NCBI RefSeq assembly: GCF_914271545.1
Contig: NZ_CAJZAH010000003.1
Location: 124,001 to 188,000, forward strand
Reading direction: 5' to 3'
DNA length: 64,000 nucleotides
Source: Cupriavidus respiraculi
Lineage (GTDB): Bacteria; Pseudomonadota; Gammaproteobacteria; Burkholderiales; Burkholderiaceae
Shown here: in pieces, positions 22,961-42,262 of the stretch
Layout of the letters: each line of letters starts with the position of its first letter
How positions within the stretch are numbered: the first letter of the stretch is position 1
Position numbers and translations under genes: made by a program
Notes under the pieces: model-generated
What the model was told of the DNA's origin: nothing
Database searches by the model: none
Seen by the model: only the letters and a program-made list of their open reading frames with translations

Positions 22961-24343
<1,383 letters not shown>

Positions 24344-24414: not shown

Positions 24415-24454
24415 AGACCCGCCGGGGCGCCATTCGAGCCGCCCCACGATGTTC

Positions 24455-25366: not shown

Positions 25367-25477
25367 GTTATTGCTCTCCTGGTGGTGGAACGGCTCGCTA
25401 CCTCATTTGCTACTGAATCGTTGCCGGGTCAATACGGTAAGACCCATCCCCGGCCATCACACCGGGCGCCGGCAGGC

Positions 25478-26740: not shown

Positions 26741-26865
26741 TGGCTGCCCTTGCAATGTGATGGGCGCCAGCGTAGCGGAGCGGGCTTCGGCTGCCCAATG
26801 CGAAGACGTCCGGATCCATGTCTTCAGGCTATAGTGTCCGGCATCGACTCCCTAACCTTGTCACC

Positions 26866-27819
26866 ATGCGACTACGCCAGATCGAAGTGTTTCGCGCCGT
26901 GATGCTGACCGGCACCGTCACGGAGGCGGCCCGGCTGTTGCATATCTCCCAGCCGGTGGTCACCCGCGTGCTGCAGCATGCCGAGACCTCGCTCGGCTTC
27001 CGCCTGTTCGACCGGGTCAAGGGCCGGCTGCAGCCGACGACGGAGGCGGTGGCGCTGTATGGCGATGTTCAGCGGCTATATGGGGAGATCGAGCGGGTGC
27101 GGCGGGTGTCGGAGAGCCTGCGCCACAAGGGCGCGGGGCGGCTGCGCGTGGCGGCCACGCCCAGCCTGGCGGCGCCCTTGCTGGTGCCCGCGGTCCGCCG
27201 CTTCTGCGCGCGCCATCCGGACACCCAGGTGCAGGTGCTGACCCACCATACCGACGAGATCGTGCAGGCCTTGCTGCGCAACGAACTGGATCTTGGTTTT
27301 GCCTTCGCGCCGCCGCGGCACGAGGCCATCGACGGCGAGCCGGTGGCTACCGGCCGGATGCTGCTGGCGGTGCCGCGCGAGCAGCCGCTGCCCGGTGGCG
27401 GCCGGCGGGCCCGCGTGCCCATGCGGCAGCTGCTGGACCGGGCCTTTATCGACTACGACGACAACAGCTCGCTGGGTTTGCTGGTGCGGCAGATGCTGGC
27501 GCGCAACGCGCTGGAACCGCGCTCCACGCTCGAGGTCCAGACGTATTCGCTGGCGCTCTCGCTGGTCGAGAGCGGGCTGGGACTGGCCGTGCTGGACCAG
27601 TTCACGGCGCTGGGCGCGCCCGCGGACCGGGTCAGCCTGCACGACCTGCAACCGGCCCTGGCGTTCGAGATCCATATGCTGCGTGCGAGCCACCGGGGCA
27701 TTTCCAGCCTGGCGGACGACATGCGCGAGCAGTTCAGGCTGGCCGCCGCGGAACGGGGCGCCAGCCTGCCGTCGCGGCTCGAAGCGCCCGCCGTGACCTT
27801 CGACCATGCACTGAAGTGA
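26866..27819 (+). CDS. LysR-family transcriptional regulator (divergent from dadA-like gene)
   Basis: A 317-residue LysR regulator. The helix-turn-helix TVTEAARLLHISQPVVTRVLQHAE and wing LGFRLFDRVKGRLQPTTEA are clear, and the effector domain begins near residue 90. The ATG at 26866 is right before the DNA-binding domain (MRLRQIEVFRAV). With 125 bp separating it from the divergent dadA-like gene, the standard expectation is that it controls that gene and possibly gltI. The effector is probably an amino acid, by context only. Confidence 0.88.
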   Translation: MRLRQIEVFRAVMLTGTVTEAARLLHISQPVVTRVLQHAETSLGFRLFDRVKGRLQPTTEAVALYGDVQRLYGEIERVRRVSESLRHKGAGRLRVAATPSLAAPLLVPAVRRFCARHPDTQVQVLTHHTDEIVQALLRNELDLGFAFAPPRHEAIDGEPVATGRMLLAVPREQPLPGGGRRARVPMRQLLDRAFIDYDDNSSLGLLVRQMLARNALEPRSTLEVQTYSLALSLVESGLGLAVLDQFTALGAPADRVSLHDLQPALAFEIHMLRASHRGISSLADDMREQFRLAAAERGASLPSRLEAPAVTFDHALK

Positions 27820-28019
27820 GCCGGCGGGCCGGGGCCACCGCGGCATGTTCAATCGGTTTGAATATGTCAGTGAAGATGGGGGCTTCCCGGCCGCCTTGGG
27901 AAGCACAATAATGCGACCATCCGCTCGTTCACGAGCACGCCGGAGCGCCTGGCCATCGTTGGCTGCCCCGGCGCGACCGACAAAGAATATGAAGCGCCCC
28001 CGCGCAGGAACCGTTATCG

Positions 28020-28610
28020 ATGCGTCAGCCAACTTCGCCGTCCCCTTCGCAGCCCGCCGCCGGCACACCCCACGCCTACGGGGCGACCGCCATCGGCCTG
28101 CACTGGATCGTCGCGCTGCTGATCCTCGGGGCCTTCGCCTTGGGCCTGTACATGACCGGCATTCCCGGCTTCACGCCCACCAAGCTGAAGCTGTACTCGT
28201 GGCACAAATGGCTGGGAGTGACGGTGTTCGCGCTGGCGCTGATCCGGGTGCTGTGGCGCCTGACCCATGCCGCGCCCCCGGTCGCCGCCGGCACGCCGGC
28301 CTGGCAGGCGACGGCCGCCCACGCGGTGCACCGGCTGCTGTACGCGCTGATCGTCGTGGTGCCGGTGACCGGCTATTTCTACAGCCTGTCGGCCGGCGTC
28401 CCGGTGGTGTACCTGGGCGTCTGGCCGCTGCCCGTGCTGATCGAGCCGAATGACACGGCCAAGGAGGTCCTGAAGCAGGCCCACATCTGGCTGAACTATC
28501 TGATGGCGGCCATCGTCGCCGTCCATGCGGCCGCGGCGGTCAAGCACCATGCCGTCGATCGCGACGGCACGCTGGGACGTATGCTGCCGTTCCTGAAGTC
28601 AGGCAAGTAG
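28020..28610 (+). CDS. Cytochrome b561
   Basis: A 196-residue membrane protein with four transmembrane segments. Conserved His residues occur in IGLHWIVALLIL, LYSWHKWLGVT, AHIWLNYLMAAIVAVHAAAA and near the end, consistent with two b-type haems of the bacterial cytochrome b561 (CybB/YceJ) family. It carries electrons in the cytoplasmic membrane, probably from quinol. The next two genes encode YceI proteins, as in the E. coli yceJ-yceI pair. Confidence 0.9.
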   Translation: MRQPTSPSPSQPAAGTPHAYGATAIGLHWIVALLILGAFALGLYMTGIPGFTPTKLKLYSWHKWLGVTVFALALIRVLWRLTHAAPPVAAGTPAWQATAAHAVHRLLYALIVVVPVTGYFYSLSAGVPVVYLGVWPLPVLIEPNDTAKEVLKQAHIWLNYLMAAIVAVHAAAAVKHHAVDRDGTLGRMLPFLKSGK

Positions 28611-28708
28611 TCGGCATGCCGGGAATGCCCCGGCATGCGCACCCGTTTCCGAATCCTGGCGCCCGGGTCAAAGCTCGCGCGGCGCCGGCAATCTGCAAGG
28701 AGTATTGG

Positions 28709-29278
28709 ATGCAACGTATCAACCGACCCGGCATGTGGCTGGCCGCGGCCGCGCTGGCCACGGCCGGCATCACCGCGAATATCGCGTCGGCGCAGGTCGA
28801 CGTGGCCAAGAGCTCGGTCACGGCCGTGGCGCGCCAGATCGGCGTTCCCATGGAGGGCAAGTTCAGGAAGTTCGACGCCGCGGTCGACTTCGATCCCGCC
28901 AGGCTGGCCACGTCCAGCGCCAAGGTGGAGATCGACGTCGCCAGCTTCGAGATCGGCGACGCGGCCACGACCAAGGAAGTCAAAGGCCGCGACTGGTTCG
29001 ACGCCGCGCGTTTTCCAAAGGCCGTGTTCCAGTCGACCGGCATCCGCAACGGCGCCGCGGGCAAGTACGACGTGACCGGCAAGCTGACCATCAAGGGCAA
29101 GACGGTCGACGTCGTGGTGCCCGCGACCTATCGCCAGGAAGGCGCCGGCCAGGTCTTCGAGGGTGTGCTGCCGATCAAGCGCACTGCCTTCAACATCGGC
29201 GAGGGCGACTGGAAGGACACGTCGGTCGTCGCCGACGACGTCCAGATCAAATTCCGTATCGTCACGGCGAAGAAGTAA
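28709..29278 (+). CDS. YceI family periplasmic protein (first copy)
   Basis: A 189-residue lipocalin-like YceI protein with a cleavable signal peptide (cleavage probably after IASA-Q). The mature part has the domain's strand pattern, including [32 protein letters not shown] and [15 protein letters not shown]. YceI relatives bind isoprenoid lipids such as polyprenyl quinone precursors. The ATG at 28709 has an AAGGAG ribosome site. It lies 98 bp after cytochrome b561. Confidence 0.9.
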
Positions 29279-29357
29279 GGCCGCGGCGGGCAGCCGCCGT
29301 TGCGCCGTCGATTGCTGTTGGTTCACCCCCATTCATTCACGATTTTCCGGAGCACCC

Positions 29358-29948
29358 ATGACCCTGCGTTCCCTCGTTCTCGCCCTTGCCGCCGCCTCGG
29401 CCACCCTCGCCGCCGGCGCCGCCTCGGCCGCCGCGGTGACCTATAACCTCGACCCGAGCCATACCTACCCGAGCTTCGAGGCCGATCACCTGGGCGGACT
29501 GTCCAAGTGGCGCGGCAAGTTCAACAAGTCGAGCGGCGTGGTGACGCTGGACCGTGCGGCCAAGACCGGCACGCTGGACATCAAGATCGATACCGCCTCG
29601 ATCGACTTCGGCCACAACAAGATGAACGAGCACGCCACGAGCCCGGACATCTTCGACGCGCAGGCCTATCCCGAAGCCACCTACAAGGGCAAGTTCTCCA
29701 AGTTCGCCGGCGACGTGCCGACCGAGGTGGACGGCGTGCTGACGCTGCGCGGCGTGTCCAAGCCGCTGAAGCTGGAGATCCGCGAGTTCAAGTGCATCCA
29801 GCATCCGATGCTCAAGCGCGAAGCGTGCGGCGCCGATGCGTTCGCCACCTTCAACCGCACCGACTTCGGCGTCGACTACGGCGTCAAGATGGGCTTCAAG
29901 CCCGAGGTCAAGCTGGCCATCCAGGTCGAAGGCGTGCGCGCCGACTGA
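29358..29948 (+). CDS. YceI family periplasmic protein (second copy)
   Basis: A 196-residue YceI protein with a signal peptide (ASA at about residue 24) and the signature start [27 protein letters not shown]. It keeps the canonical [17 protein letters not shown] segment and is closer to classical YceI than the preceding copy. The C-terminal half carries two Cys residues in [19 protein letters not shown], which could form a disulfide. It ends the b561-yceI-yceI operon, followed by a strong terminator. Confidence 0.93.
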
Positions 29949-29982
29949 TCGGGTCGCCGCCCGCGGCGCGGGCAGTACCGGC

Positions 29983-30015
29983 AAGGCCGGGTTCGTCGGC
30001 GAACCCGGCCTTTTT
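29983..30015 (+). terminator. Rho-independent terminator after the second yceI
   Basis: A 13-bp perfect stem (AAGGCCGGGTTCG with CGAACCCGGCCTT) around loop TCGG is followed by T residues. It isolates the phcB promoter from upstream transcription. Confidence 0.93.
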
Positions 30016-30332
30016 CTTTGGTGCGGCGCGACGGTTACCGGGGCCGTTGTCCGCATGGGACTCGCACAGTACAATCGGTGCGACTTATGCTGCGCGGCGC
30101 GGCAGTCCTTGCCGCAAGGCGCGCGCGCCGTTCGTGCCGCCGGCCGTGCGGCAAGCCCCCAACCCTGACGTTCCGAGGCCGCCACAGGCCCCATCCCTAT
30201 GTCCTGATTTCGTCGTCGCGCTTCGCCCACCGCCGACCGGTCGCGGCCCTTGCCGCTCGCCAAGCCTGACCGCCGTGGCATGGCCACCCGCGTGTCAGCC
30301 CGCATACTTCGGATTTCCCCTGGCGCCTAACT
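30016..30332 (+). other. phcB upstream region and leader
   Basis: About 320 bases between the terminator and phcB. A sigma-70-like promoter (30047-30075) lies far from the gene, leaving a leader of about 250 bases. An Arg-rich 60-codon open frame (30087-30269) exists in the leader but lacks a ribosome site and looks like chance. Confidence 0.5.
30047..30075 (+). promoter_or_regulatory. Candidate sigma-70 promoter of the phc operon
   Basis: TTGTCC (30047-30052) and TACAAT (30070-30075) are separated by exactly 17 bases. It is the best promoter-like match I saw in the window and is the only good candidate between the preceding terminator and phcB. Confidence 0.6.
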
Positions 30333-31724
30333 GTGTACTCCCAAACGCAAATCGATCCGGTGGTCAGCTTCCGCAACTCGCAGGGCGAGCAGGTGCGAGG
30401 TACGATCATCAACCTGCAGAGAAAGTCGCTGGTGATGGAGGTCTACAACCCGTACTCCATCGTCCAGGTCAGCGAGGTGCTGAGCGAGCTCAGCGTGCGT
30501 ATCGGCACCAAGAACGCCTACCTCGGCAAGGCCGTGGTGATGAGCCTGGTCAATACCGGCCTGACCGCGGTGGTATCGCTGACGCTGATCGACGAGTGGC
30601 GCGAGCTGAGCGACCTGCCGAACGAGCCCCGCTCGGTGGGGCGCGAGGCGGAATTGTTCGTCAACGACTGGGACGCGCGCTTCAATATCCGGCGCGACTA
30701 CCAGATCGTGGTCAACGAGATGCGCGCCTTCCTGTCCGAGGTGTCGCGCTGGGTCGAGCAGGTGGACCTGACCGAGAACCTGCCCAAGACCGACGGGCGC
30801 CTGCGCGAGGACGTGTTCGCCGAGCTGGCCACGCCCATCATGGTCAAGGTCAAGACCTACCTGGACCGGCTGGAGGCGGAGGCCGAGCGCGTCGACCCGG
30901 AGATCGCCCCGGTGCACCGCACCTACGCCCAGTCCGCGCTGCATCCGCTGCTGCTGCGCGCGCCGTTCGTGTATCGCACTTTCACCAAGCCGCTGGGCTA
31001 TGCCGGCGACTACGAAATGGTGAACCAGATCCTGAGCGATCCGCAGCAGGGGCCCACCACCTACTTCCAGATCGTCAATACCGCCTTCCTGAAGGCGGCG
31101 GTGGCCACGGCGCACCGCAACCGCATCGATCTGCTGGTGGACTTCCTGTCGCGCCAGGCCGACGCCGCGCGCGCGGCCGGGCGCACGTACCGCGTGCTGA
31201 ACGTGGGCTGCGGCCCGGCCTTCGAGATCCAGCGCTTCGTGCGCGAGTACCCCAACCCCGAACTGCTGTCGTTCCAGCTGGTGGACTTCAGCGAGGAGAC
31301 GCTCGAATACACCCGCGCCTCCATCGAGCGCGCCGCCACCGGCGCCGGCCGCAAGGTGGCCGTGGAGATGCTGCACCAGTCCGTCCATGAGCTGCTCAAG
31401 CGCAAGATCTCGGCGGGCGATCCAAGCCTGCGCGAGTTCGACGCGGTCTATTGCGCGGGCCTGTTCGACTACCTGTCCGACAAGGTCTGCGCGCGCCTGC
31501 TGAGCTATTTCGCCGCCCGCACCCGTCCCCAGGGCGAGCTGCTGGTGACCAACGTCCATTCGGACAACCCCGAGAAATTCGGCATGGAGCATCTGCTGGA
31601 GTGGTACCTGATCTATCGCGACGAGGCGAGGATGGAAGCGCTGCTGCCCGAGAACTCCAGCGCGCACAAGCTCTACGTCGACGCCACCGGGGTCAACGTC
31701 TTCGCCGAAGCGACCATCGCGTGA
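30333..31724 (+). CDS. phcB: PhcB-type SAM-dependent methyltransferase (quorum signal synthase)
   Basis: A 463-residue protein with a class I SAM-methyltransferase domain in its C-terminal half: glycine loop VLNVGCGPAFEIQ near residues 288-300 and acidic strand LVDFSEETLEY. In Ralstonia solanacearum PhcB makes the methyl ester quorum signals 3-OH-PAME or 3-OH-MAME from hydroxy fatty acids. The N-terminal 85 residues look like a small beta-domain, perhaps PilZ-like but without a clear RxxxR motif. The start is GTG with no good ribosome site; the next Met is too far in. First gene of phcB-phcS-phcR-phcQ, and the neighbours make the assignment strong. Confidence 0.87.
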   Translation: MYSQTQIDPVVSFRNSQGEQVRGTIINLQRKSLVMEVYNPYSIVQVSEVLSELSVRIGTKNAYLGKAVVMSLVNTGLTAVVSLTLIDEWRELSDLPNEPRSVGREAELFVNDWDARFNIRRDYQIVVNEMRAFLSEVSRWVEQVDLTENLPKTDGRLREDVFAELATPIMVKVKTYLDRLEAEAERVDPEIAPVHRTYAQSALHPLLLRAPFVYRTFTKPLGYAGDYEMVNQILSDPQQGPTTYFQIVNTAFLKAAVATAHRNRIDLLVDFLSRQADAARAAGRTYRVLNVGCGPAFEIQRFVREYPNPELLSFQLVDFSEETLEYTRASIERAATGAGRKVAVEMLHQSVHELLKRKISAGDPSLREFDAVYCAGLFDYLSDKVCARLLSYFAARTRPQGELLVTNVHSDNPEKFGMEHLLEWYLIYRDEARMEALLPENSSAHKLYVDATGVNVFAEATIA

Positions 31725-31782
31725 TGCCCGGATGCGGCGCCCTGGCGGCGCCCGAGCCTGGATCACTTCTGACAAAGCGCCG

Positions 31783-33114
31783 ATGAGCACCAACCAACTT
31801 TACGCCGGGTACGAGAACGAGCTGGCGGACTTCCGTCTGGCCTTCAGCCGGGGCGGCGCCTATACGGCCATCGCGCTGGTGCTGCTGGGCATGGGGCTGG
31901 ACTATGGCCAGTACCCGCAGTGGCAGGGGCCGTTCGCCGCCGCGCGCATCGTGGTGTCGCTGGCGATCGCCGGCATCGTAGTGGCGCTGTACAGCGCCGC
32001 GGGCCGGCGCCTGGTGCCGTGGCTGACGCTGACCTGGCTGCTGCTGCCGCAGATCATGATCGCGTGGATGATCCAGCAGACCGACGGCGTCGCCTCGCCG
32101 TACTACGTCGGGCTGTATCTGGCCATCTTCGCCTCCGGCATCGCGCTGCCGTTCGGGCTGTTCCAGAACCTGGTGTTCGGGCTGATTTCCTACCTGTGCT
32201 ACCTGGTGGCCTGCCTGCTGCATCCGGCGGGCATCGAGCCGGTCGGCACCTTTATCCTGAACTCGCTGTTCATCCTGTTCGCGGCCGCCGCCAGCGCCGT
32301 GTACACCTTCTTCAACGAGCGCGCCCGCTTCATGCTCTTCACGCTGAAGGCGGAGGTCACGCGCAAGAATGCCGAACTCGAGGGCATCAACCGCAAGCTG
32401 ATCGACATCAAGGGGCAGATGCTGCAGCAGGAAAAGATGGCCGCCATCGGCACGCTGGCGGCGGGCCTGCTGCACGAGGTCAACAACCCGGTCAATTTCT
32501 GCCTGATGGCGGTCGAGGTCGCCATGGAGGAGCCCGCGGCCAAGAAGGAGCCGGCGCTGCAGGAATGCCTGGTGGACGCCAAGGATGGCATGAAGCGGAT
32601 CCAGCATATCGTCTCGGACCTGAAGACCTTCGCCTATCGCAAGCCCGGCGCGGAGGCGGAGGGTCAGCCCTTCCTGTTCGAGAAGGCGCTCGATTCGGCC
32701 ACGCGGCTGACCGCGCACGAGCTGCGCGGGGTGCAGATGACCCGCGAGCTGCCGGCCGACACGCTGGTGCTCGGCGACGAGGCCGCCATCATCGGCGTGC
32801 TGATCAACCTGTTCTCCAACGCGGCGCTGGCCATGCGCAAGGCCGGCACCGCCGCGCCCGCCATCCATACCCGCGGCGAGTGGCGCGATGGCCGGCTGCA
32901 TCTGACCGTGCGCGACAACGGTCCGGGCATCGCCACCGAAAACCTGGCGCGGGTGTTCGAGCCGTTCTTCACGACCCGCGACGTGGGCCAGGGCCTGGGA
33001 TTGGGACTGTCGATCAGCTATGCGGTGATCGAGCGGCACGGCGGCCTGCTGTTCGCGGAAAGCGAGCTGGGCCAGTGGACGGCCTTCAGCTTCGATCTGC
33101 CACCGGCGGAATGA
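31783..33114 (+). CDS. phcS: PhcS-type membrane sensor histidine kinase
   Basis: A 443-residue kinase. Residues about 25-178 form six hydrophobic segments with hardly any soluble sensing domain, as expected for a receptor of a lipophilic signal. After a coiled-coil linker (about 185-215) comes the H-box AAGLLHEVNNPVNF with His231, then an N-box in LINLFSNAALAM, and G-boxes DNGPGIA and GQGLGLGLSISYAV. In R. solanacearum PhcS senses the PhcB product and phosphorylates PhcR. The ATG at 31783 is 58 bp after phcB, and phcR follows 7 bp after its stop. Confidence 0.87.
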   Translation: MSTNQLYAGYENELADFRLAFSRGGAYTAIALVLLGMGLDYGQYPQWQGPFAAARIVVSLAIAGIVVALYSAAGRRLVPWLTLTWLLLPQIMIAWMIQQTDGVASPYYVGLYLAIFASGIALPFGLFQNLVFGLISYLCYLVACLLHPAGIEPVGTFILNSLFILFAAAASAVYTFFNERARFMLFTLKAEVTRKNAELEGINRKLIDIKGQMLQQEKMAAIGTLAAGLLHEVNNPVNFCLMAVEVAMEEPAAKKEPALQECLVDAKDGMKRIQHIVSDLKTFAYRKPGAEAEGQPFLFEKALDSATRLTAHELRGVQMTRELPADTLVLGDEAAIIGVLINLFSNAALAMRKAGTAAPAIHTRGEWRDGRLHLTVRDNGPGIATENLARVFEPFFTTRDVGQGLGLGLSISYAVIERHGGLLFAESELGQWTAFSFDLPPAE

Positions 33115-33121
33115 GGACGCG

Positions 33122-34252
33122 ATGAGCGATGTCAGGCAATCCCGGCTAACCGTGCTCTACGTCGACGACGAGGACATGGCGTGCAAGTACTTCGCGCGTG
33201 CCGCCGGCCCGGGCTACGAGGTGCTGACCGCGGACGGCGCGGACGCCGCGATGGCGTTGCTCGCGCGCGAGGGCGCCCGGGTCGCGGTGCTGGTGACCGA
33301 CTTCCGCATGCCCGGCCGCAACGGCGGCGACCTGTTGCGGCAGGTCGCGCAGGAGTATCCGCAGATCGTGCGCCTGCTGGTGACGGCCTATGCGGACAAG
33401 GACATGCTGCTGCAGACCGTCAACAGCGGCGAGGTGTTCCGCATCCTCGAGAAGCCGCTGGGCGTGCAGGCGGTGCGCGACGTGCTGGAGCTCGCCCACG
33501 AGCGCTACCGCGAGCGGCTGGCGCGGCGGGAGCGTTTGATCGCCATCGACGAGACGCTCGCCTTTCTCGCACATGAACTGAACACGCCGCTGGCTGCGAT
33601 CGCCAACTTCGCGCGCGGCGTCGAGAGCCGCAGCGCCGCCGACTTGGACGCGCAGCGGCAGGCCGAGATCGGCCAGGCCGCCGCGGCGATGCAGAGCAAC
33701 GCGCAATATTGCCTGGCGGTGATCTCGTCGTTCCTGCAATCGGTGCGCGGCAATGGCGGACGTCCGCTGGCGGCCGGCGACGAGCACGAGGTCACGGCCG
33801 GGCGGCTGATCGCCGCGCTGCTGGACAGCTATCCGTTCGAGGGGGCGCAGCGCGGCTGGATCGAGGTGGAAGTGCTGGGCGACTTCCCGGTGCAGACGCT
33901 GCCCAATTGCGTGTCGCTGGTGCTGTCATCGCTGATGAGCAATGCGCTGCGCGCACTGGCGGGCCAGGCCGAACCGCGGCTGCGCTTTGTCGTCGAGGCC
34001 GAGCCGGAGCCCGCGATCCGGATCGCCGACAACGGTCCCGGCATCCGCCCCGACGTGATGGAGCGCCTGCTGGTCGATCCGGTCACCACGCACGCCGCGG
34101 CCGGCGGCAATGGCCTGGGCATGATCTTCTGCAATCGGGTCATGCAGTCTTTTGGCGGTGGCATCCGTGTCGAGTCGATGGCGGGCGCCGGTACCACCGT
34201 GACGCTGGATTTTCCCAATACCAAGAGTCGAATGCATAGGAGCGATCGATGA
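33122..34252 (+). CDS. phcR: PhcR-type hybrid: receiver followed by histidine kinase domain
   Basis: A 376-residue protein in which a receiver domain comes first and a kinase domain is the output. Receiver: LYVDDEDMACKYF with the acidic pair, phosphoacceptor Asp60 in LVTDFRMPGRNG, and Lys in ILEKPLG. Kinase: His151 in FLAHELNTPLAAI, N-box SSLMSNALRAL, G1 IADNGPGI and a GLGMIFC loop. This order is the known peculiarity of PhcR in R. solanacearum, where it relays the PhcS signal and thereby relieves repression of PhcA function. The GAGG ribosome site is good. Its stop overlaps phcQ in ATGA. Confidence 0.88.
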   Translation: MSDVRQSRLTVLYVDDEDMACKYFARAAGPGYEVLTADGADAAMALLAREGARVAVLVTDFRMPGRNGGDLLRQVAQEYPQIVRLLVTAYADKDMLLQTVNSGEVFRILEKPLGVQAVRDVLELAHERYRERLARRERLIAIDETLAFLAHELNTPLAAIANFARGVESRSAADLDAQRQAEIGQAAAAMQSNAQYCLAVISSFLQSVRGNGGRPLAAGDEHEVTAGRLIAALLDSYPFEGAQRGWIEVEVLGDFPVQTLPNCVSLVLSSLMSNALRALAGQAEPRLRFVVEAEPEPAIRIADNGPGIRPDVMERLLVDPVTTHAAAGGNGLGMIFCNRVMQSFGGGIRVESMAGAGTTVTLDFPNTKSRMHRSDR

Positions 34253-35235
34253 ACGATGCGACCACCAACCAGGCGTCGCCCCCGGCGATTCTGTTCGTCG
34301 ATGATGAGGCCACCGCGGTCAAGTACTTCCAGCGGGCCATCGGCGCGCTGGCGCCGGTCATCACTGCCGGCTCGGTCGAGGAGGGCAAGGCGTTGCTCGA
34401 CGCCCACGGCGACACGCTGTCGGTGCTGGTGTCGGACCAGCGCATGCCGGGGGAGTACGGCAACGAGCTGCTGCGCTACGCGCGCGAGCGCTATCCGCAC
34501 ATCGTGCGGATCCTGACCACCGCCTATTCGGAGCTGGAGCACACCGTCGAGGCGGTCAACGAAGGCCAGATCCACCGCTATATCAAGAAGCCCTGGGACA
34601 TCACCGCGCTGCGCATGGAGCTGAAGCAGGCGCTGGAGATTGCCGGGCTGCGCAAGGAGCGCGACCAGCTGATCCGCGAGAAGCTGAGCGTGGTGCAGCG
34701 CCAGACGCTGGCCGGCCGCATCGGCACGCTGCAGGCGCTGTGCATCGCGCTGGTCGGCCCCGGGCGCTTCCAGCCGCTCGAGACTTATCTGTCCACCGCC
34801 GCGCTGGCCGGCGTGGACAACCCCGAGCCCGACTGGCTGCGGATGGACTATGCGGATCTGGTGGGCGCGGAGAGCCGGCGCGGCGGCGAGTTCGGCCACG
34901 CCGTGGCGACCCAGCTGGGCGCGCTGCGCCAGCGTGGCGCGGCCGGTGCCGATCCGCTCGCCGTGGTGGCGCAGGCCGCCGCCGGTCCGCTGCGTCATCA
35001 GGGCGTCGAACTGGTGGCCACGGACGGGCGTGCACTGGCCGAATTTCTCGCCGGCCCGGTAGGCGAGCCGGTGTCCGCCGCGCATGCCGCGTGGCTCGCG
35101 AGCCTGCTGTGGCTGGAAGAGAGCGGCGGCGCGCTGCACGCGGTGCGCGAGGGCGGCGCGGTGCTGCTGCGCGCCGGCCAGCGCGGCGCCGAGTTTCCGG
35201 CCGACCGGCTGGCGGTCTGGATCGAGCAGTTCTAG
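34249..35235 (+). CDS. phcQ: PhcQ-type response regulator
   Basis: A 328-residue response regulator. The receiver has AILFVDDEATAVKYF, Asp63 in LVSDQRMPGEYG, a Thr in ILTTAYSEL and Lys in YIKKPWD. A helical linker (residues about 125-165) leads to an Ala/Gly-rich C-terminal region with no recognised DNA-binding or enzymatic motif. In R. solanacearum PhcQ belongs to the same quorum circuit. It overlaps phcR by 4 bases at the start, and at its end shares the bases CTAG with the stop codon of the convergent minus-strand gene. Confidence 0.83.
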   Translation: MNDATTNQASPPAILFVDDEATAVKYFQRAIGALAPVITAGSVEEGKALLDAHGDTLSVLVSDQRMPGEYGNELLRYARERYPHIVRILTTAYSELEHTVEAVNEGQIHRYIKKPWDITALRMELKQALEIAGLRKERDQLIREKLSVVQRQTLAGRIGTLQALCIALVGPGRFQPLETYLSTAALAGVDNPEPDWLRMDYADLVGAESRRGGEFGHAVATQLGALRQRGAAGADPLAVVAQAAAGPLRHQGVELVATDGRALAEFLAGPVGEPVSAAHAAWLASLLWLEESGGALHAVREGGAVLLRAGQRGAEFPADRLAVWIEQF

Positions 35236-35657
35236 GAAGAGGACTTGGCCGCGCCGACGTGTCCGCGCGCGCGCGGCGGCGAAGACAGTTCCGGTTCGCC
35301 GGGGCGCGCATGGCGCGCCAGCGCGGCCATCAGGTCGTCGACGAACTGGCGCGACTGCTTCTGCAGGATCATGTCCGCCGCATACTGCTGCAGGTAGGCC
35401 AGCTCCTGCGGCCGCAGGTTCTCGTTGACCAGCAGCACCAGGTTCAGGCAGATGGCGCGCGTCGCATGGCAGAAGCGTTCGCAGTCCACGAACGGGGGAT
35501 GGTGGTCCACCACCATCGTCACGGTCCCCGGCGCACTCGCCTCGACGAAGGCGCGGGCGTCGCCGAAGGCGCGGAACCTGCGGTTGGGATAGCGATCGGC
35601 GAGCAGAAACTCCAGGCTGTCCAGGAACGACACGGACGGGGAGACGATGGCAATCAT
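35232..35657 (-). CDS. Degenerate receiver-domain protein
   Basis: A 141-residue stand-alone receiver-like protein. The opening VSPSVSFLDSLEFLLADRY aligns with VDDSKSFIDSL of the LqsR-like protein at 14 kb, but the Mg-binding acidic pair is replaced by Ser-Pro. Asp51 (MVVDHHPPFVD) and a late Lys (MILQKQS) remain, while the Thr/Ser switch position is Asn (LLVNENL). It may therefore be a phosphorylation-impaired receiver or a binding partner. The ATG at 35657 has AGGAG 9 bases upstream. An ATG at 35681 overlapping the kinase stop in ATGA is the alternative. Last of the synthase-kinase-receiver set. Confidence 0.75.
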   Translation of the reverse strand: MIAIVSPSVSFLDSLEFLLADRYPNRRFRAFGDARAFVEASAPGTVTMVVDHHPPFVDCERFCHATRAICLNLVLLVNENLRPQELAYLQQYAADMILQKQSRQFVDDLMAALARHARPGEPELSSPPRARGHVGAAKSSS

Positions 35658-35677
35658 GCGTTGGGACTCCTGCTCGT

Positions 35678-36976
35678 TCATTGGTCCGCCGCCGTTGGCT
35701 GCGCGAAGCGGCGCGGCGGCGGAAAATCGATCGCGAAGCACGTATAGCTGCCGAATTCCGAGCGGCAGGATATGGTCGCGCCCCATTGGGCCAGCACGCT
35801 GCGGCAGAAGGACAGGCCGATGCCGTTGCCCGAGCCCGGCGGGTAGGTGTAGAAGCGGTCGAAGATGCGGTCCAGCACCTCGCGCTGGATGCCCTCCGCG
35901 GTATCGGTGAACTCCAGCGTGCCGCGTCCGCGCTCGCCCGGCGCCACCGCGATGGTGATCACGCCGCGGCCGGCCCGCGCGATCGCGCGCAGCGCGTTCT
36001 TGAGCAGATTGTTCAGCACCATCCGGAACATCTGCTCGTTGCCGTTGACGATCACCCCGGGCGCCAGCGACAGACGGATCTGCTCGCGCTCGTCCTCGTG
36101 ATAGAACGGATAGTCGTTGACGGCGCGCCGCACGGCCTCCGCGAGATCGAAGTTGCTGCGCGGGATCGATACCTGGTCGCGCGAATTGGCCAGCAGCAGG
36201 TCGATGCTGCCGTGCACGTTGCGCACCTCGATGCGCATGCGGCGCAAGGCCTCGTAGAGCCGTTCTGCCCGCGCCGCCGCGGTGTCCGGCGATTCCAGCA
36301 GGCCGGGCAGATGGCGCTCGAAGCCCACCAGGGTGCTCTCGATACTGGCCAGCGGCGTGCGCAGTTCGTGCGCCACCGATGCCAGCGCGGCCGCCATGCC
36401 GCGCTGCTTGGCTTCGAGCAGCACCCGGCGGTCCAGCTTGATGACCAGGATCACGATCACGAAGAACGCCAGGATCGGCAACTGCTCGCCCAGATGGGTC
36501 TGGCCCTCCAGCGTGAGCGGGGCATGGCTGATGCTGTAGAACAGCCCCGCCAGCGCGCCGCCCACCAGCAGCGAGCAGGTCGCGAACACCACGCCGAAGT
36601 GGTAGACGATGATGACCGAGCCGAGCAGCGATTCCGACCACACCAGATTGGCCCCGTTCATCAGGTACATGTACGAGAACAGGAACGGCAGCCCGATCGT
36701 GATGGCCACGAACGAATAGGGCAGCAGCCACGGCTTGCCCTTGAGCCGCATGCTGAATACCAGCGGCAGGAACAGGGCGGTGCACAGCGCGCGCAGCGGC
36801 AGGCTTTCATAGGGCTGCGGAAACACGTGCGCCCAGATGAAGTAATACAGCGGATGCCCCACGACGCCGAGCAGGCCGACGTACTGCAGCTTCGTCAGTC
36901 GGGCCAGCGACTCGTCATCGAAACTCGATGGCCTGGCCTCGTTGATATGCGTCGCAATCCTGGACAACAAATCCAT
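35678..36976 (-). CDS. CqsS/LqsS-type membrane sensor histidine kinase
   Basis: A 432-residue kinase. Residues about 28-180 hold six hydrophobic segments, with the short motif GHPLYYFIWAHVFPQPYE at the end of the first, which I recognise as typical of the CqsS/LqsS alpha-hydroxyketone receptors. The kinase core follows: His203 in SVAHELRTPLASIE, N-box LNNLLKNALRAI and G-box GSGNGIGLSFCRSVL. It has no fused receiver, like LqsS and unlike CqsS. The ATG at 36976 directly precedes the amphipathic N-terminus. It lies 111 bp after the synthase gene and its stop overlaps the upstream alternative start of the receiver gene. Confidence 0.82.
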   Translation of the reverse strand: MDLLSRIATHINEARPSSFDDESLARLTKLQYVGLLGVVGHPLYYFIWAHVFPQPYESLPLRALCTALFLPLVFSMRLKGKPWLLPYSFVAITIGLPFLFSYMYLMNGANLVWSESLLGSVIIVYHFGVVFATCSLLVGGALAGLFYSISHAPLTLEGQTHLGEQLPILAFFVIVILVIKLDRRVLLEAKQRGMAAALASVAHELRTPLASIESTLVGFERHLPGLLESPDTAAARAERLYEALRRMRIEVRNVHGSIDLLLANSRDQVSIPRSNFDLAEAVRRAVNDYPFYHEDEREQIRLSLAPGVIVNGNEQMFRMVLNNLLKNALRAIARAGRGVITIAVAPGERGRGTLEFTDTAEGIQREVLDRIFDRFYTYPPGSGNGIGLSFCRSVLAQWGATISCRSEFGSYTCFAIDFPPPRRFAQPTAADQ

Positions 36977-37087
36977 TGGTTCGGTCTTTCGCTGGTGCCG
37001 CGTGATGCCGCTGCCAAAGCGGCGGTGCCCTGTCTCGCGCCGGCCGTGCCGGTCCTGTGCTGCCGCCGCCAGCATCCCGGCGCCCGG

Positions 37088-38359
37088 CTACGCGCCGGCC
37101 AGTTCCTGGGCGCTGCGCCGGCGCTGGCGCCCGCGCCGGGTCGACGACCAGTTGTCCAGGTCGACCTCGTCGCGCATGTCCGCGCATACGTGCAGCAGCC
37201 GCTCCAGATCCTGCTCGGTATGGCCGGCGTTGAGCGTCAGGCGGACCAGGGAGCGGTTCTTGGCCGTGGCAGGTGCACAGAATACCGCGCCGAACACCCC
37301 GCGTCGCTGCAAAGCGTTGCGAAGGCGCAGCGTCTGCGGTTCCGAGCCCGCTTCCAGCGCGATGATCTGCTCGGTGCCGTCCGACACGTTGTAGCCGAGC
37401 CGGGTCAGCCCCTCGCGCAGCGTGCCGGCCATCCGGTGCAGGCGGGCACGCCGGTCGTGGGCCGCCGAAATGAACGTCAGCGCGGCATCGAACCAGGCGA
37501 TCTCGTGCGACAGCAGGCCCGAGCTGAAGATCGCCGGGCGCGACTCGCAGGTGAAATAGCCCTTGAACTCGCTGGAACAGGTCACGAAGCCCGCCCGGCC
37601 GGCGAAGGCCTTGGCCAGCGACGCGGTGCGGAAATGGACGCGGTCGGCCAGACCCAGCGCGCACACCAGGCCGGCGCCGTTGGGGCCATGGGTGCCGAGC
37701 GAGTGCGATTCGTCGACGACCAGGATCGAGCCGCTTTCCTCGGCCACGCGCGTGAGCGCCGTCAGCGGCGCGACGCTGCCCGTGGTGCTGTAGACCGAAT
37801 CGACCACGATCACGCCCGGGCCGTGCTTGGCGATCTGCGACTGGGCGTGGTCCACGTTGTTGTGGATGAACGGGATCGCCCGCGCGCCGGCCGCGAGCGC
37901 TCCTTCCCACAACGAGGCGTGGGCCGACATGTCGAGGTAGACGGGCACATCCGGCCCGGCCAGTGTCTGCACCAGTCCCACGTTGGCCGCCCAGCCCGAA
38001 TGGCATACCACGCCGTCCTCGGCGGACATGAAATGGGCGAGGCGGCGCTCGAAGGCCTGCTGCGCCGATTCCCCATACATGAAGACCGAGGACATCAGCA
38101 GCTCATGGCTGCCTTCGTCCAGCGCCTGCGCCTGCCGGCGGCGCAATCCCGGCACGGACAGCAGATCCAGATAGTCGTTGCTGGACATATGCAGCGCATC
38201 GGGCTGCGGCGTCAGGCCGTGCAGCAGATGGTCGCCGCCCCAGACGTTCTGCATGCGGTCCACGTAGTGGGCCTGCATCCGGCGGGTGACAAAGTCGGGG
38301 AGATGGCGCTCGGCGCGCGCAAGGGGATTGCCGTGGACGAGTCTGGCCAAATCCGTCAT
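37088..38359 (-). CDS. CqsA/LqsA-type alpha-hydroxyketone autoinducer synthase
   Basis: A 423-residue PLP-dependent aminotransferase-fold enzyme of the alpha-oxoamine synthase family. Schiff-base Lys250 lies in RTASLAKAFAGRAGF and the PLP-ring Asp in LVVDESHSLGTHGPNGAG. The SSNDYLDL start and the TASLAKAFAG lysine motif resemble CqsA and LqsA more than BioF or Kbl, and an adjacent CqsS/LqsS-like kinase supports that. CqsA condenses an acyl-CoA with an amino acid or SAM-derived donor to give the CAI-1/LAI-1 class of signals. The C-terminus has a basic Arg-rich tail. The ribosome site AGGAG is 6 bases from the ATG. BioF-like synthesis of another oxoamine is the alternative. Confidence 0.82.
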   Translation of the reverse strand: MTDLARLVHGNPLARAERHLPDFVTRRMQAHYVDRMQNVWGGDHLLHGLTPQPDALHMSSNDYLDLLSVPGLRRRQAQALDEGSHELLMSSVFMYGESAQQAFERRLAHFMSAEDGVVCHSGWAANVGLVQTLAGPDVPVYLDMSAHASLWEGALAAGARAIPFIHNNVDHAQSQIAKHGPGVIVVDSVYSTTGSVAPLTALTRVAEESGSILVVDESHSLGTHGPNGAGLVCALGLADRVHFRTASLAKAFAGRAGFVTCSSEFKGYFTCESRPAIFSSGLLSHEIAWFDAALTFISAAHDRRARLHRMAGTLREGLTRLGYNVSDGTEQIIALEAGSEPQTLRLRNALQRRGVFGAVFCAPATAKNRSLVRLTLNAGHTEQDLERLLHVCADMRDEVDLDNWSSTRRGRQRRRSAQELAGA

Positions 38360-38544
38360 ATCGAACTCCTGTAGTCAGTTGGATCGGAAACTGCGTGGAT
38401 GACGCCTCGTGAGCGCCATCGGAATGCGGGAAGACGACCGGAACCGACCGCGGAGACAGCGAGTGCAGATCGGACGGCCGTGCAGCGAATAACGCGATGC
38501 ATGCCGCGTCTGAGCACAATGAGTGACGCGGATTACGCCAAGAA

Positions 38545-38574
38545 TATTAAGTCAGTGCCGAAATTCGGGCGCAA
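38545..38574 (-). promoter_or_regulatory. Candidate promoter of the autoinducer synthase gene, with internal palindrome
   Basis: On the minus strand TTGCGC (38574-38569) and TTAATA (38550-38545) are 18 bases apart in an unusually AT-rich patch. Between them lies the inverted repeat CCGAA-A-TTCGG (38558-38568), which could be an operator. The start site would be about 180 bases upstream of the synthase ATG. Confidence 0.42.
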
Positions 38575-38639
38575 CTCTACAAGTCTGTATTTCGCCACTT
38601 CCTCCGCCTTCCGTGTTCCCGAACGAACCGACGCCGCGC

Positions 38640-39797
38640 TCAGCCCGCGGCGGGCTGGGCCGTCACCCGCCCGGCATGCTCTTCCTCCGTCACTTCGCCT
38701 GGCTTGAGATTGCCCAGCGGCGACAACAGCGCCGGATCGAACGGCCGCGGCTGCAGCGCGGCGGCAAGCCGCCCAGGAAAGTCGGGATTGGCCAGCGCCC
38801 CCCTGCCCAGGGCCACCAGGTCCGCCCCTTGCCGCAGCACTTCCAGCGCGCGCGCCGTATCGTGCAGGCCGCCGTTGGCCACGATCGGCAGGCCGGGCGC
38901 CGCGCGCCGCGCGTGCTCGACCAGGCTCGAGGGATCGCCCGGAAAGGCCGGGCGCCACGCCTCGAATTCCGTGACGTGCAGGTAGTCGACACCCGCCCCG
39001 GCCAGCGCGCCGAACACGGTCGCTGCGCCTTGCGCGGCTTCCGGCCACTTGTGATGGAAGTCGTTGACCTTGCCCTGCGAGATCCGTATCCCGAGCGGAA
39101 AGCCAGCGCCCACCGCCGCGCGCACCGCGTGCGCCGTCTCGACGGCGAGGCGGACGCGGTCCTGGATGTCGCCGCCCCAGCGATCGGTGCGTTGATTGGT
39201 GTGCCCGGTCAGGAACTGGTCCAGCAGATAGCCGTTGGCGCCGTGGATCTCCACCGCGTCGAACCCGGCCACCTCGCGGGCCAGCGTCGCGGCGCGCGCG
39301 AATCCGGCGACGGCATCGCCGATCTCCGCCTCCGTCATCGCGCGCGGCATCCGGTAGGGGCCTGTGCCGGCGTACACCCGCATCTGTTCGCCGACCGGCC
39401 GGACCGCGGACGGTCCGACCGTGTCGCCGCGGAAGCGGTTCGCCTGGGACAGCGCGCCGGCGTGCATCAACTGCGCGACGATGCGTCCGCCGCCTGCGTG
39501 CACCGCGCGCACCACGTCGCGCCAGGCCAGGGCCTGCGCCATGTCGGTCAGGCCGGGCTGGTTCGCATAGCCTTGCGCGTAGGCGCAGTCGGTATAGATG
39601 CCCTCGGTGATGACGAGACCGAAGCCGCCGCGTGCAAAGCGCGCGTAGTAGCGCGCCATGGCGGCGGTGGGTACGCCATCGTCGGTGGCGCTGATGCGGG
39701 TCATCGGCGCCACCGCGAGGCGGTTGGGCAACGTCAGCGGCCCCAGCCGGAACGGCGCCAGCAGGCCAGGCAGGTCGGGCAGTGCGGGCCGTGTCAT
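38640..39797 (-). CDS. NADH:flavin oxidoreductase, Old Yellow Enzyme family
   Basis: A 385-residue FMN-dependent ene-reductase. The beta-barrel shows LPNRLAVAPMTRISA, QLMHAGALSQANRFRG, the active-site HGANGYLLDQFLTGHTNQRTDRWGG segment, and the phosphate-binding end VANGGL...LVALGRGALANPDFPGRL. Relatives reduce activated C=C bonds in enones, maleimides or nitro-esters. The ATG at 39797 overlaps the stop of the ridA-like gene by 4 bases, so the pair is one translational unit, divergent from a LysR regulator. Confidence 0.9.
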   Translation of the reverse strand: MTRPALPDLPGLLAPFRLGPLTLPNRLAVAPMTRISATDDGVPTAAMARYYARFARGGFGLVITEGIYTDCAYAQGYANQPGLTDMAQALAWRDVVRAVHAGGGRIVAQLMHAGALSQANRFRGDTVGPSAVRPVGEQMRVYAGTGPYRMPRAMTEAEIGDAVAGFARAATLAREVAGFDAVEIHGANGYLLDQFLTGHTNQRTDRWGGDIQDRVRLAVETAHAVRAAVGAGFPLGIRISQGKVNDFHHKWPEAAQGAATVFGALAGAGVDYLHVTEFEAWRPAFPGDPSSLVEHARRAAPGLPIVANGGLHDTARALEVLRQGADLVALGRGALANPDFPGRLAAALQPRPFDPALLSPLGNLKPGEVTEEEHAGRVTAQPAAG

Positions 39798-40192
39798 GTC
39801 CGGTCCTCCGCGGCCAGCGCGATCGCCTCGATCTCGATCATCGCCTCCGGCGAGTACAGCGCGGAAACTTCGACGATGGTGTCGGCCGGATACGGCGTGG
39901 AAAACCACTTGCGGCGCAACGCGACGATCTTCGGGAAATGCGCCATCGAGGTCAGGAAGATGGTCACCTTGGCGATGCGGTCCAGCCCCGAGCCGGCCGC
40001 TTCCAGTGCGCGCCGCAGGTTGCGGAAGGCCTGGTCGGCCTGGCGGTCGAAATCGTCGGGCGCGACGATGGTGCCGTCATCGCCCACTCCCGCCTGGCCG
40101 GACACGAAGATGAAGCCGCCCGCGCGGATAGCTTGGGACAGCAGGTAGGGGGCGTAAGGGTCGGGTTGCGTATGGACTTGTTCGAGAGGCAT
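39794..40192 (-). CDS. RidA/YjgF-family protein lacking the catalytic arginine
   Basis: A 132-residue RidA-fold protein with the usual FIFVSGQAGVGDDGTIV start, the DRIAKVTIFLTSMAHFP segment and IEIEAIALA C-terminal strand. In RidA the imine-deaminase Arg sits in VEVARLPK; here the corresponding stretch is VEVSALYSP, so the Arg appears to be Ala. It is therefore more likely a Rid2-7 member with another role, possibly acting on an intermediate of the flavin oxidoreductase encoded by the overlapping next gene. Confidence 0.87.
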   Translation of the reverse strand: MPLEQVHTQPDPYAPYLLSQAIRAGGFIFVSGQAGVGDDGTIVAPDDFDRQADQAFRNLRRALEAAGSGLDRIAKVTIFLTSMAHFPKIVALRRKWFSTPYPADTIVEVSALYSPEAMIEIEAIALAAEDRT

Positions 40193-40271
40193 GGCTTGCT
40201 CCGGCTGATGGTTGAGTTACGATCACCCACCGGGCGGTGCCGCAGCGGGTATGGCAAGTATCGTCACCGCT

Positions 40272-40287
40272 GTTTGGCCCGACAAAC
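40272..40287. promoter_or_regulatory. Putative LysR-type operator
   Basis: The dyad GTTTG-GCCCGA-CAAAC contains a T-N11-A core (T at 40274, A at 40286) and lies in the 132-bp divergent interval between the ridA-like gene and the LysR gene, 37 bases before the regulator's start. This is the standard position for an autoregulatory LysR recognition site. Confidence 0.55.
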
Positions 40288-40324
40288 GTTGATATTTCAG
40301 GGAACAGATGAGTACACCTTATCC

Positions 40325-41233
40325 ATGGGGGCGGCCGTGAGACGGCTTCCGGCGCTCGGGGCGCTGCGCGTGTTCGAGGCGGCCGCACGGCGCCAGAGCT
40401 TCAAGCTGGCCGCGGAGGAACTGCATGTCACGCCGACGGCGGTCAGCCACCAGGTGCGGCTGCTGGAGGAATACCTGGACACCCGGCTGTTCGAACGCCA
40501 GACCCGGCGGGTGCGGCTGACCGCCGCCGGGCACGCGCTGTTTCCGGCCGTGCGGGACGGGCTGGACGGGTTCGAGCGCGCCCTCGAAACGGTGCGCCGC
40601 GCCCGCGCACCGAAGGTCGCGACGTTGTCGTCCACCGTCGCTTTCACCGCCCGGCGGCTCGCGCCCCGCGCGGGCTCGTTCCGTGCCGAGCATCCCGACT
40701 GGACGCTGCGGCTGGACGCCACCAACGCCCCCGTCGATCTGGACGCCGATGCCGACGCCGCGGTCCGCTACGGCGACGGGCACTACCCGGGCCTGCTGGT
40801 GGAGCCGCTGTTCGTCGATCGCTTCGCCCCCGTCTGCAGTCCCCGCCTGGGCCTGCGCGACGAAGCGGATTTGCGCGGCGCCACGCTGGTGCACTTCGAC
40901 TGGGGACCGGCGGCCCGTGGCGACGAGCGCGCGCCGGTCTGGCGCGACTGGCTTGCCCGGGCTGGCGTGGGCGGCGTCGACGCCGACGCGGGGCTGTCCT
41001 TCACCGACGAGATCCATGCCGTGCAGGCGACGCTGGCGGGGCAGGGCGTCGGCTTGCTGAGCCTGACGCTGGTGGCCGACGAGCTGGCCGCCGGCGTGCT
41101 GGTGCAGCCGTTCGCGCTGTCGCTGCCCAGCTATCGCTACGACCTCGTGTACAGCGCCCGGGCCGCGGAGCGGCCGGCCACCGTGCTGCTGCGCCAGTGG
41201 GTCGGCGCGGCGTTCGGCGAAGGCCGCGGCTGA
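40325..41233 (+). CDS. LysR-family regulator, GcvA-like
   Basis: A 302-residue LysR regulator of the GcvA/AmpR-like branch. It starts RRLPALGALRVFEAAARRQSF with helix-turn-helix KLAAEELHVTPTAVSHQVRLLE, then LFERQTRRVRLTAAGHALFPAV. The effector domain shows the GcvA-type AAVRYGDGHYPGL segment. ATG at 40325 (a GTG at 40337 is possible). Divergent from ridA-like/OYE, which it probably controls. Followed by a perfect bidirectional terminator. Confidence 0.87.
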   Translation: MGAAVRRLPALGALRVFEAAARRQSFKLAAEELHVTPTAVSHQVRLLEEYLDTRLFERQTRRVRLTAAGHALFPAVRDGLDGFERALETVRRARAPKVATLSSTVAFTARRLAPRAGSFRAEHPDWTLRLDATNAPVDLDADADAAVRYGDGHYPGLLVEPLFVDRFAPVCSPRLGLRDEADLRGATLVHFDWGPAARGDERAPVWRDWLARAGVGGVDADAGLSFTDEIHAVQATLAGQGVGLLSLTLVADELAAGVLVQPFALSLPSYRYDLVYSARAAERPATVLLRQWVGAAFGEGRG

Positions 41234-41245
41234 ACCGCGCGGGCG

Positions 41246-41272
41246 AAAAAAAAGCGCCCGCGGGCGCTTTTT
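41246..41272. terminator. Bidirectional terminator between lysR and secF
   Basis: A perfect palindrome GCGCCCG/CGGGCGC is flanked by eight A and five T residues between convergent genes, so it works on both strands. Confidence 0.88.
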
Positions 41273-41290
41273 CGAGGGGACGGGAGGCGG

Positions 41291-42262
41291 TCAGGCCTGC
41301 GCGCCGTAGTTGGGGTCGTCGCGATCGATGTCGGTCGCCTTCTTCTCGCCCTTGACCAGGTCCTCGCGCTTGACGCCCAGCCACATGGCCAGCGCCGCGG
41401 CGACGAACACCGACGAGTAGATGCCGAACAGGATGCCCACGGTCAGCGCCAGCGCGAAGTAGTGCAGGGTGGGGCCGCCGAAGAAGAACATCGACAGCAC
41501 CATCATCTGGGTCGAGCCGTGCGTGATGATGGTCCGCGAGATCGTGCTGGTGATGGCGTTGTCGATCACCTCGTGGGTCGTCATCTTCCGGTACTTGCGG
41601 AAGTTCTCGCGGATCCGGTCGAAGATCACCACCGACTCGTTGACCGAGTAGCCCAGTACCGCAAGCACCGCCGCCAGCACCGACAGCGAGAACTCCCACT
41701 GGAAGTAGGCGAAGAAGCCCAGGATGATCACGATGTCGTGCAGGTTGGCGATGATGCCGGCGACCGCGAACTTCCATTCGAAGCGGAACGACAGGTAGAC
41801 CACGATGCCGACGATCACGCACAGCAACGCCAGCAGGCCGTCCGTGGCGAGTTCCTTGCCCACCTGCGGGCCGACGAACTCCACCCGTTGCAGCTTGACG
41901 TCCGGCGTGGCCGCCTGCAGCGCTGTCAGCACCTGCTCGCTTTGCTGGGCCGAGGTCACGGTCTTGCCGTCCGGGCCTTTCTGCAGCGGCAGGCGGATCA
42001 TCACGTCGCGCGAGGTGCCGAAGTTCTGCACCTGCACATCGGTATAGCCGAGCTTGCCGACCTGGCCGCGGATCTTTTCCAGGTCGGCGGGCTGCTGGTA
42101 GCTGACCTCCATCACCGTGCCACCGGTGAATTCGATCGACAGGTGCAGGCCCTTCTGCCAGAGGAAGAACACGGCGGCGGCAAAGGTCAGGAAGGAGATC
42201 ACGTTGAAGATCAACGCGTGCTTCATGAACGGAATGTCGCGCCGGATGCGGAAAAATTCCAT
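41291..42262 (-). CDS. secF: Protein translocase subunit SecF
   Basis: Inner-membrane partner of SecD that uses the proton gradient to aid late steps of protein export. 323 residues with six transmembrane segments, an N-terminal short periplasmic domain (FTGGTVMEVSYQQPADL), and the conserved GYSVNESVVIFDRIREN segment. Last gene of the minus-strand run queA-tgt-yajC-secD-secF. Confidence 0.97.
   Translation of the reverse strand: MEFFRIRRDIPFMKHALIFNVISFLTFAAAVFFLWQKGLHLSIEFTGGTVMEVSYQQPADLEKIRGQVGKLGYTDVQVQNFGTSRDVMIRLPLQKGPDGKTVTSAQQSEQVLTALQAATPDVKLQRVEFVGPQVGKELATDGLLALLCVIVGIVVYLSFRFEWKFAVAGIIANLHDIVIILGFFAYFQWEFSLSVLAAVLAVLGYSVNESVVIFDRIRENFRKYRKMTTHEVIDNAITSTISRTIITHGSTQMMVLSMFFFGGPTLHYFALALTVGILFGIYSSVFVAAALAMWLGVKREDLVKGEKKATDIDRDDPNYGAQA

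Follow-up and report, generated by a model that had tools for sequence, protein, structure and literature searches.

An unusual adjacency of the phc and alpha-hydroxyketone quorum-sensing modules in Cupriavidus respiraculi

In a stretch of 64,000 nucleotides from Cupriavidus respiraculi (hereafter the window; assembly GCF_914271545.1, contig NZ_CAJZAH010000003.1, positions 124,001 to 188,000), the phc operon, which encodes a fatty-acid methyl ester signalling system, runs directly into a minus-strand module for alpha-hydroxyketone (AHK) quorum sensing. This raises the question of whether two chemically different signals are read together at this locus or whether their genes have become neighbours for other reasons. 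A sequence-only reading of the window had taken the tight pairing as a sign of signal integration, for example through PhcR or PhcQ. We have found that the adjacency is real and combines known parts in a new way, in a single genome. It is unusual and not conserved, and as both systems are already known and normally lie far apart, it has the look of an insertion in one species and not of a conserved machine for two signals. The explanation that we prefer, with moderate confidence, is that two known quorum-sensing modules have been brought together by DNA insertion in one Cupriavidus lineage.

All genes named by the sequence-only reading have been found close to where it had placed them. The plus strand carries phcB (30333-31724), which encodes a methyltransferase dependent on S-adenosylmethionine and acting as synthase of the 3-OH fatty acid methyl ester signal, followed by phcS for a membrane sensor histidine kinase (31783-33114, with the start set by relatives and the longest open reading frame (ORF) beginning at 31732), phcR for a hybrid of receiver, HisKA and HATPase domains (33122-34252), and phcQ for a receiver with a C-terminal part to which no family could be assigned (34249-35235). 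The Phc gene order of methyltransferase, kinase, receiver-kinase and receiver protein is present, and the operon (30333-35235) converges on the minus-strand set of AHK synthase, kinase and a protein of 149 amino acids. Judged by its family models, the minus-strand gene at 37088-38359 is one for an AHK autoinducer synthase of the LqsA/CqsA type, and AHK production is predicted. Its product scores 573 bits with the curated NCBIfam model NF005526 ('alpha-hydroxyketone-type quorum-sensing autoinducer synthase'), above the cut-off of 428, and fails the models for BioF (236 bits, cut-off 426) and for glycine C-acetyltransferase (Kbl; 179 bits, cut-off 460). The matches in the Protein Data Bank (PDB) at E up to 1e-50 are three, all labelled 'CAI-1 autoinducer synthase', with E values of ~1e-107 and long identical stretches; those common to the synthase and 3hqt include DESHSLGTHGPNGAGL and ASLAK, in the region and motif of the pyridoxal phosphate lysine as in CqsA, where we take the lysine to play its usual role. 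The enzyme has its full length, carries the family motifs and is coding-like in composition, and its proposed assignment to CqsA/LqsA has been borne out.

The second gene of the minus-strand set encodes an LqsS-type membrane histidine kinase (35678-36976; longest ORF 35678-37075). It is full length with coding composition, has no C-terminal receiver, and keeps the H, N, G1, F and G2 boxes, which align with those of its relatives. Over the sensor and kinase parts it shares ~44-49% identity with the main Cupriavidus type and 39-42% with the type found in two relatives, G020 and G022, and a simple scan has given four hydrophobic stretches, two of them each long enough for two helices. Such a kinase adjoins the synthase in 40 of the 42 synthase loci compared besides the window, some of which are the same place fetched twice; the exceptions are L088 and L194, the latter being cut by a contig end. 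Homology to kinases beside AHK synthases and the intact motifs are in agreement with the CqsS/LqsS-type identity given before, and each set does possess its own synthase and its own membrane kinase, phcB with phcS and the AHK synthase with the LqsS-type kinase.

The two sets are thus both present, and whether their pairing is of a general kind has been followed in 36 genomes of the genus, a sample of 399 from the order and 275 from another family, with E limits for the synthase of 1e-80, 1e-90 and 1e-85 and for PhcB of 1e-30, 1e-40 and 1e-60, respectively. PhcB has been found in all 36 genus genomes, that of the window included (in two pieces in G023), and the synthase in 24 of them (E at most 1e-80). 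In every one of the 23 other genus genomes with both, synthase and phcB lie on different contigs, and this holds for two assemblies of only two contigs each, G002 and G022, in which the contigs are presumably separate replicons. The order sample has yielded 19 genomes with the synthase, 10 with PhcB and 6 with both, and the other family 30, 16 and 5. Over all surveys 30 different genomes hold both systems; they lie within 10 kb of each other in the window only, and on different contigs in 26. Neither phcB nor phcQ has been detected near the synthase in fourteen named contigs (titled Cupriavidus or Ralstonia in thirteen cases) over up to 10 kb on each side, or less in L014, L017 and L021, where the contig stops short. 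In the 7 phc and 13 synthase loci whose neighbourhoods have been read, no link has been seen, while draft assemblies could hide some links elsewhere. As a separate observation, in one other genus phcB lies ~40 kb from the AHK synthase in all three genomes with both (G084, represented by L192 and L193, G539 and G630). The linkage on which signal integration had been argued is therefore absent in related genomes, with the sets on different contigs in 23 of 23 genus-mates and secF directly after phcQ in the seven relatives compared below.

The place of the AHK module suggests how the two sets became neighbours. In 7/7 relatives secF follows phcQ at a distance of roughly 80-200 bases, and a terminator-like hairpin lies between the two in six of them, readable in both directions in three. 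In the window an insert of ~6.05 kb (35236-41281), absent from all seven relatives, stands between phcQ and secF (41291-42262, minus strand) and separates phcQ from the hairpin, which is found on the secF side (41246-41272, stem 41254-41267, both directions). Within the insert the AHK module comes first, followed by genes for an NADH:flavin oxidoreductase of the old yellow enzyme (OYE) type (38640-39797, minus strand), a RidA family protein (Pfam Ribonuc_L-PSP; 39794-40192, minus strand) and a LysR-type regulator (40325-41233, plus strand). This trio is present in nine other Cupriavidus genomes, six with the synthase on another contig or more than 400 kb away and three without a synthase; as it stands apart from any synthase there, we have taken it as a passenger and do not count it among the genes of the signal pathway. 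Where the convergent operons meet, no terminator-like site has been found; the scan over 32000-37100 gives a single weak site, a plus-strand stem that lies at 35984 within the kinase gene, and a simpler scan adds another weak plus-strand site, of 5 pairs, at 35405.

A horizontal source of the AHK module is favoured by the phylogeny of its genes. In a tree of 45 synthases (22 rows identical to another one over residues 40-300, a second copy of the window's synthase and matches below 330 bits having been dropped, and a partial copy in G305, L113, standing outside the tree), the window synthase groups with one of two copies of G022 (100/99), outside the main Cupriavidus clade of 25 rows (100/100). 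The kinase, in a tree from which 5 of 41 kinases had been dropped, falls outside the main clade of Cupriavidus kinases, as its sister (100/99), on a long branch. Identity of the synthase to its counterparts in the genus is 61-71%, and that of PhcB is mostly 87-92% (69-74% for six genus-mates). The G022 sister copy (L088:9408-10868) is a stand-alone synthase beside topoisomerase, single-strand-binding protein (SSB) and DUF3701 phage-integrase-type genes, in a setting that looks mobile; no kinase is found within 8-9 kb on each side of it. The nearest relatives by PhcB, G020 and G022 (L090 and L089), possess another kind of kinase/synthase pair, whose two genes converge and have no LqsR gene between them.

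Several observations weigh against an insertion of foreign DNA. The borders of the insert have shown no telling repeats and no insertion scar, no donor sequence has been found, and the guanine-cytosine (GC) content of the insert is ordinary, without a shift, so that the position in the trees is what carries the case for a foreign origin. The long kinase branch, together with a kinase tree that places the window beside Cupriavidus tandem operons, would also fit an old paralogue kept by vertical descent. The most serious competitor, a possible though rather unlikely course of events, is an intragenomic move, by which the lineage's own old AHK copy would have shifted to the phc locus from another replicon without any foreign DNA. 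It is in keeping with the synthase lying off the contig of phcB in all 23 other genus genomes with both, two-contig assemblies included, with the tandem synthase-kinase order of most Cupriavidus loci, with the sister position of the kinase to the main clade, and with the location of the OYE-RidA-LysR trio elsewhere in nine relatives. It is opposed by the mobile-looking setting of the synthase's sister copy, by a synthase identity to the genus well below that of most PhcB proteins, and by the different synthase type held by the two nearest relatives.

The insertion also bears on the small gene that touches both operons. The degenerate receiver-like protein of 149 amino acids (35232-35681, minus strand), receiver-like only by a profile comparison with LqsR and by weak matches to two response-regulator-like ORFs (L138 and L139), overlaps the kinase stop by ATGA and the phcQ stop by CTAG, and its place is that of LqsR in the locus L009, where a 4-base overlap is found too. 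It scores 36 over 127 columns against an LqsR profile (best of 20 shuffles 17), and LqsR proteins have taken the first 18 places (one sequence twice), with weak scores, in a single-sequence ranking that also included 28 receivers encoded by this genome and members of the PhcQ and PhcR families. A profile of the 28 same-genome receivers (2 of 30 rows dropped) has failed to align it, and neither the PhcQ profile (12, shuffles to 18) nor the PhcR profile (14, shuffles to 29) has recognised it. The ranking and the failure of the general receiver profile favour the LqsR reading. The protein keeps Asp59 and Lys108 and has Val85 at the Thr position, and in the region of the acidic pair it carries Ser14-Pro15-Ser16 where LqsR has Asp-Asp-Asp/Ser, so that the pair is absent. 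It has neither the LqsR insert nor the C-terminal output domain, the alignment to the L009-led LqsR profile jumping the insert and ending at residue 123. Codons 1-123 are coding-like (codon-position GC 0.67/0.38/0.92), and this strong composition indicates that the body has probably been maintained until recently; the tail, codons 124-149 and thus only 26 codons, is non-coding-like, with GC of 0.77 at the third and 0.73 at the second position. We regard the protein as probably a shortened, degenerate LqsR; the simplest reading, and a probable one, is that an LqsR gene was truncated where the insertion joins phc.

This kinship has points against it. Identity to LqsR is 20-23% with an hhalign probability of 56-64, realignment leaves 30 aligned columns only, and one shuffle scored as high as 29 against the PhcR profile. 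A FixJ profile of three rows gives 28 (best shuffle 17) and so also sees a receiver, and the 28 receivers of the genome reach a mean of 52 and up to 73 against the LqsR profile, so that a score of 36 is weaker than that of an ordinary receiver; at this low identity the kinship stays probable. No match has been found in G008 and G014, the sole genus-mates in the 399-genome sample, most genus genomes having been searched in fetched loci only. At E up to 1 the protein matches neither a Pfam family nor a plasmid sequence, and it has no meaningful PDB match. Weak matches have been found in 11 other genomes of the 399-genome sample, of which 6 have been inspected: L138 and L139 hold response-regulator-like ORFs with a weak, near-full-length match (~125 residues) and L137 one over 63, all three presumably of FixJ type, and the matches in L133, L134 and L136 look like chance. 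In other Cupriavidus loci, no such gene has been seen after the kinase, either by tblastn or among the longest ORFs, of which up to four were considered at each locus. Of the receiver protein put forward by the sequence-only reading, the gene itself and its receiver-like character, seen with the LqsR profile and the weak L138/L139 matches, have stood; being degenerate, it is doubtful as a phosphorylated response regulator.

A better candidate for a link between the circuits than PhcR or PhcQ is a further protein, which the sequence-only reading did not name. The gene at 14026-15072 (minus strand) encodes a response regulator of the PhcX/LqsR family, 348 amino acids long, with a receiver and an LqsR-type output region. 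It matches PDB entry 6sy9 (labelled 'Response regulator', which we take to be Legionella LqsR) at E 6e-45 over residues 8-311, that is, near full length, and is 52% identical to the LqsR-like protein of L009. In the window it lies ~15 kb upstream of phcBSRQ and ~20 kb from the AHK kinase. It is present in all 36 genus genomes, on the phcB contig in 31 of them at ~10-27 kb distance, whereas an LqsR-like gene adjoins the kinase or synthase instead in 13 of the synthase loci compared. This agrees with the account in the accessible part of PMC10653808, in which LqsR is described as having moved, in Cupriavidus and Ralstonia, from the AHK cluster to the phc locus. We infer PhcX/LqsR to be the likely true partner of the AHK kinase.

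Taken together, phcBSRQ with PhcX/LqsR ~15 kb upstream would be the old resident of the locus, and the AHK module of synthase, kinase and shortened LqsR-like receiver would be the newcomer, which may have entered between phcQ and its terminator together with or beside the unrelated OYE-RidA-LysR cassette. The synthase would make an alpha-hydroxyketone and the kinase would sense it, and as the local receiver is without the residues needed for phosphorylation, the phosphate would be passed to PhcX/LqsR. The circuits would then meet, if at all, downstream via PhcX and PhcA, as may happen in any Cupriavidus, and not through adjacency. The latter may add a local effect, since without a terminator at the joint of the convergent operons each transcript could run antisense into the other. 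Cross-talk through linkage is unsupported, and nothing has been found that ties the AHK kinase to PhcR or PhcQ.

An integrated two-signal island, in which selection would have brought the circuits together for a joint reading of AHK and fatty-ester signals via PhcR, PhcQ or the small receiver, is improbable. The adjacency with its shared CTAG stop and the well-kept coding composition of the small receiver's body speak for it, as does the effect of PhcQ on signal production in Ralstonia, where the available text of PMC6989110 describes PhcQ as affecting the production of the signal but not its transduction to PhcA. The link is found, however, in none of the 23 genus-mates with both systems and in one of the 30 surveyed genomes with both, the convergent operons have no common promoter, and the small receiver is without its acidic pair. 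We give a slightly smaller, and likewise low, chance to a composite locus in the making, in which the LqsR of the incoming AHK module would have been reduced to a receiver that can no longer be phosphorylated and has ceased to compete with PhcX, the new kinase would feed the phc-linked regulator, and the missing terminator would couple the operons by mutual antisense transcription. Similarly unlikely is the view of the AHK module as a decaying passenger without a working output: it would account for the shortened small receiver with its non-coding-like tail and for the want of a full LqsR adjoining the kinase, and is countered by a synthase and a kinase that are full length, keep their family motifs and have the composition of coding sequence, and by the full-length PhcX/LqsR kept in the genome. 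CqsA-type enzymes can yield enaminones, and OYE and RidA, whose genes adjoin the AHK module on the same strand, might act on enamine intermediates as tailoring enzymes for the AHK signal; given the nine relatives that carry the trio with the synthase far away, on another contig or missing, this is very unlikely. That the enzyme is a BioF or Kbl, and a second quorum-sensing circuit therefore absent, can practically be dismissed. In its favour are the common enzyme superfamily and a match of the BioF model below its cut-off; against it, the cut-off of NF005526 is well exceeded and that of BioF is missed, CAI-1 synthase structures are the sole PDB matches at E up to 1e-50, and a histidine kinase adjoins the gene.

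The surroundings of the phc operon have shown further features. Compared with the same seven relatives, the window has a second extra stretch at 24343-28073, 3.7 kb against ~0.3 kb in 7/7, with genes for a solute-binding protein, an FAD-dependent oxidoreductase, which we presume to be DadA-like, and a LysR regulator, and a third at 20790-21940, with a 315-aa ORF (20914-21861) that to our eye resembles an Rpn-type transposase/nuclease protein. The minus-strand ORFs at 28496-29332 and 29337-30305 have no family match and have been taken as antisense shadows. A phcB-like operon with 68% identity is carried by a conjugative plasmid of Paraburkholderia graminis (L203:15001-19376), with pel genes downstream and a third gene that is annotated as a response regulator and, at 405 bp, does not reach the length of phcR.

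If the proposed explanation is true, this species would allow a natural test of whether PhcX still responds to an AHK kinase and so show how two chemically different signals share a regulator; if it is not, the locus is a useful warning that adjacency in a single genome says little on function. The remainder of an AHK circuit, with its own LqsR-like gene reduced, now stands at the same locus that LqsR is proposed to have joined in the accessible part of PMC10653808. A description of the direct phc/AHK adjacency has not been found in the open-licence literature, and an earlier depiction is possible, as figure 7 of PMC10653808 draws gene arrangements by genus.

Among known systems, the window resembles LqsA/LqsS/LqsR of Legionella in the clustering of AHK synthase and kinase and in the presence of an LqsR orthologue in the genome (PMC10653808, in part), and differs in that its LqsR, PhcX, lies ~20 kb from the kinase and near phc. 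With JqsA/JqsS/JqsR of Janthinobacterium sp. HH01 it shares the cluster of AHK synthase, kinase and response regulator (PMC3566124), whereas the local receiver of the window is degenerate and the available text of that source does not contain the word phc. The phc order agrees with phcB RSc2735, phcS RSc2736 and phcQ RSc2738 of Ralstonia as given in the accessible part of PMC6989110, a likeness by order alone, and the LqsR-family regulator close to phcBSRQ corresponds to PhcX of Ralstonia, where, according to the same part of PMC10653808, lqsA has mostly been lost, while the window has an AHK module at the phc locus. That source also describes Phc and Lqs systems as coexisting in many Betaproteobacteria and the Phc and Lqs-like (AHK) systems of C. 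taiwanensis as both functional (Wakimoto 2020, J Nat Prod 83:1876, as given there). C. taiwanensis is thus alike in having both circuits in one Cupriavidus genome (PMC10653808); in the window the circuits adjoin, whereas the 23 other genus genomes with both carry them on different contigs.

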